A stretch of 64,000 nt of DNA, from assembly GCF_002198735.1 (NCBI RefSeq), contig NZ_MWLO01000139.1, positions 1 to 64,000 of the forward strand. The letters are read 5' to 3'. The position numbers and the translations under genes are program-made. Numbering within the stretch: the first letter of the stretch is position 1; each line of letters starts with the position of its first letter. This document shows, piece after piece, positions 56,124 to 57,307 of the stretch. The notes under the pieces were generated by a model, which was given only the letters and a program-made list of their open reading frames with translations, made no database searches and was not told the DNA's origin. This DNA is from Ideonella sp. A 288 (GTDB lineage Bacteria > Pseudomonadota > Gammaproteobacteria > Burkholderiales > Burkholderiaceae_C).

Positions 56124-57307
56124 ATGACCCACGCCTTCATCTGTGACGCCATCCGCACGCCCATCGGGCGCTATGGCGGTTCCCTGTCGTCGGTGCCGTA
56201 CCCATTCGGTCGCTGATGGCGCGCAACCCCGGTGTCGACTGGGCGGCGGTGGACGACCTGATCTACGGCTGCGCCAACCAGGCCGGCGAGGACAACCGCA
56301 ACGTCGCTCGCATGAGCGCGCTGCTCGCCGGACTGCCGGAGGACGTGCCCGGGGCGACGATCAACCGCCTGTGCGGCTCAGGGATGGATGCGGTTGGTAC
56401 GGCCGCACGTGCGATCAGGAGCGGCGAAGCCGAATTGATGATCGCCGGCGGGGTCGAGAGCATGAGCCGGGCGCCCTTCGTGATGCCGAAGGCCGATTCG
56501 GCCTTCAGCCGCAGCAACGCCGTCTACGACACCACGATCGGCTGGCGCTTCGTCAACCGGCTGATGAAGGAGCAGTACGGCGTCGACTCGATGCCGGAGA
56601 CAGCTGAGAACGTCGCCACGGACTATCGCATTGAACGGACGGCGCAGGATCGCATGGCGCTGGCCTCGCAGCTCAAGGCGGTCGCGGCACAAGAGTGCGG
56701 GTTCTTCGACGCGGAGATCACGCCTGTGACGATCGCGCAGAAGAAGGGCGACCCGCTCGTGGTCTCGCACGACGAACATCCGCGCGAGACATCGTTGGAG
56801 GTGCTGGCAAAGCTCAAGGGCATCGTTCGTCCTGATGGCACGGTGACCGCCGGCAATGCCAGCGGCGTCAACGACGGCGCCTGCGCGCTCCTGCTGGCGA
56901 GCGACAAGGCCGCTTCCCGCCATGGCCTGACCCCTCGGGCACGCATCGTCGGCATGGCCACTGCTGGGGTCGCGCCGCGCATCATGGGTATCGGCCCGGC
57001 ACCCGCGACGCGCAAGGTGCTCGCGCTGACCGGCCTGACGCTTCAACAGATGGACGTGATCGAGCTGAACGAAGCCTTCGCGGCGCAAGGCCTCGCCGTA
57101 TTGCGCGAACTGGGGCTGGCTGACGACGACCCGCGCGTCAACCCCAACGGCGGCGCGATTGCGCTCGGTCATCCGCTGGGCATGAGCGGCGCGCGTCTGG
57201 TCACGACTGCGATCAATCAGTTGCACCGCATCTCCGGCCGCTATGCCCTGTGCACGATGTGCATCGGCGTCGGTCAGGGCATCGCCATCGTCGTCGAGCG
57301 TGTCTGA
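56124..57307 (+). pseudogene. acetyl-CoA acyltransferase (3-oxopimeloyl-CoA thiolase candidate), frameshifted near the start
   Basis: The ATG at 56124 begins MTHAFICDAIRTPIGRYGG, as in pcaF, but the frame ends after 30 residues at a TGA (56214-56216). Compared with pcaF, 19 nt are missing near 56191-56200 (the RADDLG region). The remaining 363 residues, from an ATG at 56216 that overlaps the stop as TGATG, match pcaF to its end. They keep INRLCGSGMDAVG, ALGHPLGMSGAR and CTMCIGVGQG. A shortened protein lacking 37 residues might still be made by restart. The intended role was probably thiolysis of 3-oxopimeloyl-CoA. A sequencing error is possible. Confidence 0.75.

Follow-up and report, generated by a model that had tools for sequence, protein, structure and literature searches.

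Does the last gene of a catabolic operon in Ideonella sp. A 288 carry a genuine deletion, or has a piece of an intact gene been lost in sequencing or assembly? The question arises in a window of 64,000 nucleotides (the whole stretch of DNA analysed here, from contig NZ_MWLO01000139.1), in which an aerobic cyclohexanecarboxylate (bad-ali) operon ends with a PcaF-type thiolase gene (56124-57307) whose reading frame, as assembled, is broken. The operon genes and the paralogue pcaF, described below, are all on the + strand.

The operon and its terminal thiolase

The thiolase gene is linked both to ali/bad genes and to genes for dicarboxylate beta-oxidation. badH and badI occupy 38265-39931 (badH in 38265-39119, badI at about 39155-39931; TIGR03206 and TIGR03210), with aliB, for cyclohexanecarboxyl-CoA dehydrogenase, at 39948-41105 (TIGR03207) and aliA, for cyclohexanecarboxylate-CoA ligase, at 41134-42777 (TIGR03208); all four profiles are matched over their cut-offs, which bears out the identification of a cyclohexanecarboxylate operon by an earlier, sequence-only reading of this DNA. 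Further along are genes for a glutaryl-CoA dehydrogenase (45834-47018; PDB 3EOM/3GNC, E 1.7e-223), the step after the thiolase, and, upstream of the thiolase, for a FadJ-like fused enoyl-CoA hydratase / 3-hydroxyacyl-CoA dehydrogenase (53912-55981; best NCBIfam matches FadJ/FadB, below their equivalog cut-offs). No promoter- or terminator-like site was found in 55700-57500.

Operon and thiolase together would give a route from cyclohexanecarboxylate to pimeloyl-CoA, then to glutaryl-CoA and on. An intact thiolase would split the C7 ring-cleavage product, 3-oxopimeloyl-CoA (probably its substrate, judging from neighbours and family), into acetyl-CoA and glutaryl-CoA, and the glutaryl-CoA would pass to the operon's own glutaryl-CoA dehydrogenase. 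With PcaF, the beta-ketoadipyl-CoA thiolase (TIGR02430; PDB 6PCA-6PCD, which are also the best solved relatives of the window pcaF), the operon thiolase has family and catalytic motifs in common, but it differs in its frame, broken as assembled, in its place in a bad-ali operon and in its probable substrate. In an excerpt of PMC9795900, AabD of Aromatoleum sp. CIB is described as the 3-oxopimelyl-CoA thiolase in the lower pathway, which handles pimelyl-CoA formed from cyclohexanecarboxylate, and badK as absent from most Burkholderiales bad-ali clusters. The operon thiolase is likewise assigned to the lower pathway, a likeness of description and context; whereas strain CIB, according to that excerpt, has separate aabB and aabC genes, in an aab cluster adjoining bad-ali, the operon thiolase follows the fused FadJ-like gene.

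In the thiolase gene itself, ATG 56124 opens 30 codons that end in TGA 56214-56216, giving a 5′ piece at 56124-56216. The first 24 codons match pcaF (22426-23628), and after these the frame is broken; the distance from start to the MARNPGVDW segment is 92 nt, versus 111 nt in pcaF, so that 19 nt are missing. A second ATG at 56216 overlaps the stop as TGATG, a possible restart, and opens an unbroken frame of 363 codons (56216-57307). Against the TIGR02430 pcaF profile these 363 residues, the remainder of a PcaF-type (3-oxoacyl-CoA) thiolase, reach 651.1 bits where 597 is the cut-off, and the match spans positions 37-400 of the 400 in the profile. The motifs NRLCGSG, GHPLG and CTMCIG, which we take to hold the catalytic Cys, His and Cys of the thiolase, are all present in their alignment columns. 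Re-reading thus upholds the sequence-only description of the gene throughout, from the 24-residue match, the early stop, the shortened spacing and the TGATG to the remainder with its catalytic residues intact. Of the Thiolase_N profile, positions 28-259 of 260 are covered and the first 27 are absent, so as assembled the gene has no complete in-frame N-terminal part of the thiolase fold and, in its disrupted frame, has the mark of a pseudogene.

A scar in a sister copy and the palindrome at the site

Three PcaF-type copies at 83% identity or more are present in this genome: the operon thiolase, the intact pcaF of the window, and a third on contig C61 (locus L145). The 363 residues are 83% identical to the window pcaF and 88% to the C61 copy. 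At position 9589, inside the third gene, C61 has a single N, and the nine letters before this N are repeated after it. The join is thus a 9-nt overlap that was left unmerged, it lies inside a palindrome, and N and overlap sit at the codons that match the deletion in the window.

The site was followed through a set of thiolases from the fetched loci (identity of 65% or more, query start at 4 or before, end at 300 or beyond), which holds 88 rows, 61 of them distinct, and whose filter leaves out partial matches and one gene (L205) that is split by later frame breaks and intact at the deletion site. Fifty-nine of the 61, pcaF among them, keep their frame across the site, and only the operon copy and the C61 copy do not. 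The site is therefore disrupted in 2 of the 3 copies from this assembly versus 0 of the 58 from other assemblies, and the 19-nt deletion itself is found in the operon copy only. Runs of N are rare in this genome, with five (one of 67, four single) in 1,261,083 bases of a non-random sample of 63 pieces, which puts the chance of such a run in a 60-nt target at about 2 in 10,000. With N runs this scarce, the coincidence of the C61 scar with the window deletion is not chance. The C61 N with its 9-nt overlap is thus an independent sign of assembly trouble at this site. Other single-N joins in the genome are at 14610 of L271, 10811 of L280 and 15199 of L285; no local overlap was seen at these three, and their effect on reading frames is ambiguous.

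The flanks of the C61 join imply a perfect 22-bp palindrome at the site. Two loci of the same genus, L013 and L021, carry it in the same letters, and a third, L018, in the same form; in all three the palindrome is full and the thiolase intact in its own assembly. In the operon thiolase only the left arm (11 nt, 56186-56196, + strand) is present and the right arm is absent; the sequence is joined, without the 19 nt and with no N, at about 56190-56197. The idea that palindromes generally break this assembly is not supported: a scan of 480.9 kb (480,933 bases) of this genome for arms of at least 10 and a loop of at most 6 found 32 other inverted repeats, 18 with arms of at least 11 and some stronger than the thiolase palindrome, and none contains an N. 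The density of inverted repeats is slightly below that of relatives, 33 in 480.9 kb here versus 42 in 486.0 kb (486,015 bases); those with a loop of at most 1 number 15 here versus 25. A hairpin at this site can fit either reading, as it may hinder reads or assembly and may also promote a true deletion by slippage.

Selection, kinship and the region upstream

Residue comparison and a FastTree phylogeny were based on 54 distinct copies at 74% identity or more. The operon copy has 7 private residues, none at columns invariant in the other 53, and its mean dN/dS, 0.154, is the lowest of 14 copies selected from the 54 (next, 0.179), while its synonymous difference is the highest; these Nei-Gojobori values are partly saturated and hence rough. 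Its terminal branch (0.224 versus a median of 0.142) is long, the extra length being mostly synonymous change. No relaxed selection and no further lesion were found in the 363 codons, although a very recent pseudogene would look alike. Low dN/dS and the unchanged invariant columns indicate, from these sequence comparisons, that purifying selection has acted on the thiolase until very recently, or still does. In the tree the operon copy groups with own-genus thiolases (L015, L018; support 0.84) and not with the thiolases that adjoin the FadJ-like gene in other genera.

After the FadJ-like gene, and just upstream of the thiolase, lie 42 codons and a stop (55983-56111, + strand), ending in TGA directly before the Shine-Dalgarno-like AAGGA of the thiolase (by eye). 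The stretch, on which the sequence-only reading is silent, is probably what is left of the C-terminus of a GntP-family permease, an assignment made because its tblastn matches are to permease C-termini: all three plasmid records matched carry the annotation GntP family permease (47% and E 0.01 for the best), and the best of these matches lies 21 nt before the end of the permease gene. A Pfam search of the remnant gave no family at E <= 1, and in sixty relatives nothing else matched at E 0.001. Among 399 genomes of the order the matches were weak (best 40%, E 0.006), and one full-length permease family is present in 16 of the 19 loci of these weak chromosomal matches, the query's own locus included. 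The permease of L210 passes Pfam GntP; the plasmid protein falls short of E 1e-5. No full-length permease was found in this genome, which has one PF02447 match, under cut-off; two full-length permeases gave no match in it, in a search run with no positive-control genome, and the same proteins match their relatives.

Nineteen of the 20 fetched loci (all but L207) have a FadJ-like gene. The thiolase adjoins it in 11; an ORF of about 450-460 residues, MmgE/PrpD-like by eye, lies between the two in 7; and in one the contig ends first. The idea that relatives keep a permease between these genes is rejected for these loci, as full-length permease queries match none of the gaps. None was present in any of the 18 loci from relatives in which both genes can be seen, so the FadJ-like gene and the thiolase seem to have been joined here by a rearrangement that left a relic behind. 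In 20 other genomes of the genus, among the matches listed, FadJ-like gene (76%) and thiolase (78%) adjoin in G013 only. TGA codons in some FadJ-like matches were inspected at three loci; in two this is the stop, five residues before the query end, and the third has none in the alignment.

Elsewhere in this genome, contig C128 (locus L152) carries a second, decayed bad-ali copy at 7227-9289, where the badH/badI/aliB stretch is 84-87% identical to the window and lacks about 0.34 kb at one place and about 0.95 kb at another. In another genus (G340), L205 has at 10841-12030 a thiolase adjoining the FadJ-like gene, with frame breaks further downstream, and also a GntP-type permease at 3188-4534.

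Assembly fault or deletion

Taking these sequence data together, we consider it rather probable that the missing 19 nt reflect a sequencing or assembly fault at the hairpin, and that the operon thiolase is whole in the living bacterium. We infer that the operon copy once carried the full palindrome and that one technical cause lies behind both irregularities, the window deletion and the C61 scar: reads or contigs would fail at the hairpin of a GC-rich palindrome in the 5′ part of the gene, and the two sides would then be joined without the right arm. A fault is favoured over a real deletion because the same assembly visibly failed at the sister site. Besides that scar, the missing piece itself, the intact relatives, the presence of the left arm only and the lack of other decay in the gene all speak for it; against it stand the N-free window join, the 32 inverted repeats without N, the three same-genus palindromes assembled intact, and the longer terminal branch. 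The permease remnant and the deleted bad-ali copy on C128, which seem to show true decay in this genome, also count against a fault. The sequence-only reading had named an assembly error as the result that would overturn it; with the C61 scar, which was out of its view, such an error has become the likelier case. Spurious pseudogenes created by assembly are documented in an extract of PMC11017572, and the cases described there resemble ours in that a draft-assembly gene, conserved in all other respects, has a single frame break, but differ in that the loss here is of 19 nt at a palindrome and is accompanied by a scar in a paralogue, and the judgement is made from assembled sequence.

The alternative that survives best, possible though on balance doubtful, is a genuine deletion of recent date: replication slipping across the hairpin would have removed the 19 nt and left a young pseudogene, and PcaF or the C61 thiolase would cleave 3-oxopimeloyl-CoA in its stead. 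This takes the sequence as given; hairpins on repeats can make polymerases slip, as an extract of PMC4134008 has it; the intact pcaF and the C61 copy are possible substitutes; the N-free join would be explained if the palindrome had truly been lost; and the neighbouring permease remnant and the deleted copy on C128 are in keeping with it. However, a real deletion does not of itself account for the scar that the C61 copy has at these codons, unless the palindrome gave rise to each by a different route, and in the absence of relaxed selection it would have to be very recent. Direct repeats of at least 5 nt at a spacing of 19 are present in just 3 of the 61 copies, so that repeat-driven slippage of such size is not specifically predicted. 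Of the outcomes suggested by the sequence-only reading (a thiolysis step lost, taken over by PcaF, or served by a shortened protein), takeover by the intact pcaF or the C61 copy is possible.

The third outcome fares worse. That the deletion is real and that a working 363-residue thiolase is made from ATG 56216, by termination-reinitiation at the TGATG, is very unlikely, even with the overlapping codons, the intact catalytic motifs and the conserved frame in its favour. The first 27 Thiolase_N positions would be gone, and the lost part is kept in all 59 intact copies. In a model of the window pcaF (mean pLDDT 75.4, seven sequences), a strand at 5-11, a helix at 20-23 and residues 26-37 of a helix at 26-40 all precede residue 38, where the shortened protein would start. 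It is thus predicted to lack the first strand, presumably the middle of the thiolase sheet, and most of the first helices, and on this model a working enzyme is unlikely. We give still less credence to the restarted protein cleaving 3-oxopimeloyl-CoA, perhaps when assembled together with full-length PcaF subunits. Least credible of all is a -1 frameshift in translation between about 56147 and 56213, which would rejoin the frames in a protein some six residues short: both frames are open there, but a slippery heptamer was not seen (by eye) and the lost residues belong to a stretch kept in 59 of the 61 copies.

If the favoured reading of a fault at the hairpin holds, nothing is missing from the pathway, and a gene with paralogues may be turned into a false pseudogene at a palindrome with no N as a warning. 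If the deletion is real, this is a commonplace young pseudogene whose role paralogues would fill, and it could serve to test whether PcaF accepts a C7 substrate. The window also encodes, at 34552-35376 and near benC, benD and pcaF, a 3-oxoadipate:acetyl-CoA acetyltransferase (NF053568, above its cut-off), which may offer a second route for 3-oxoadipate that needs no thiolase.
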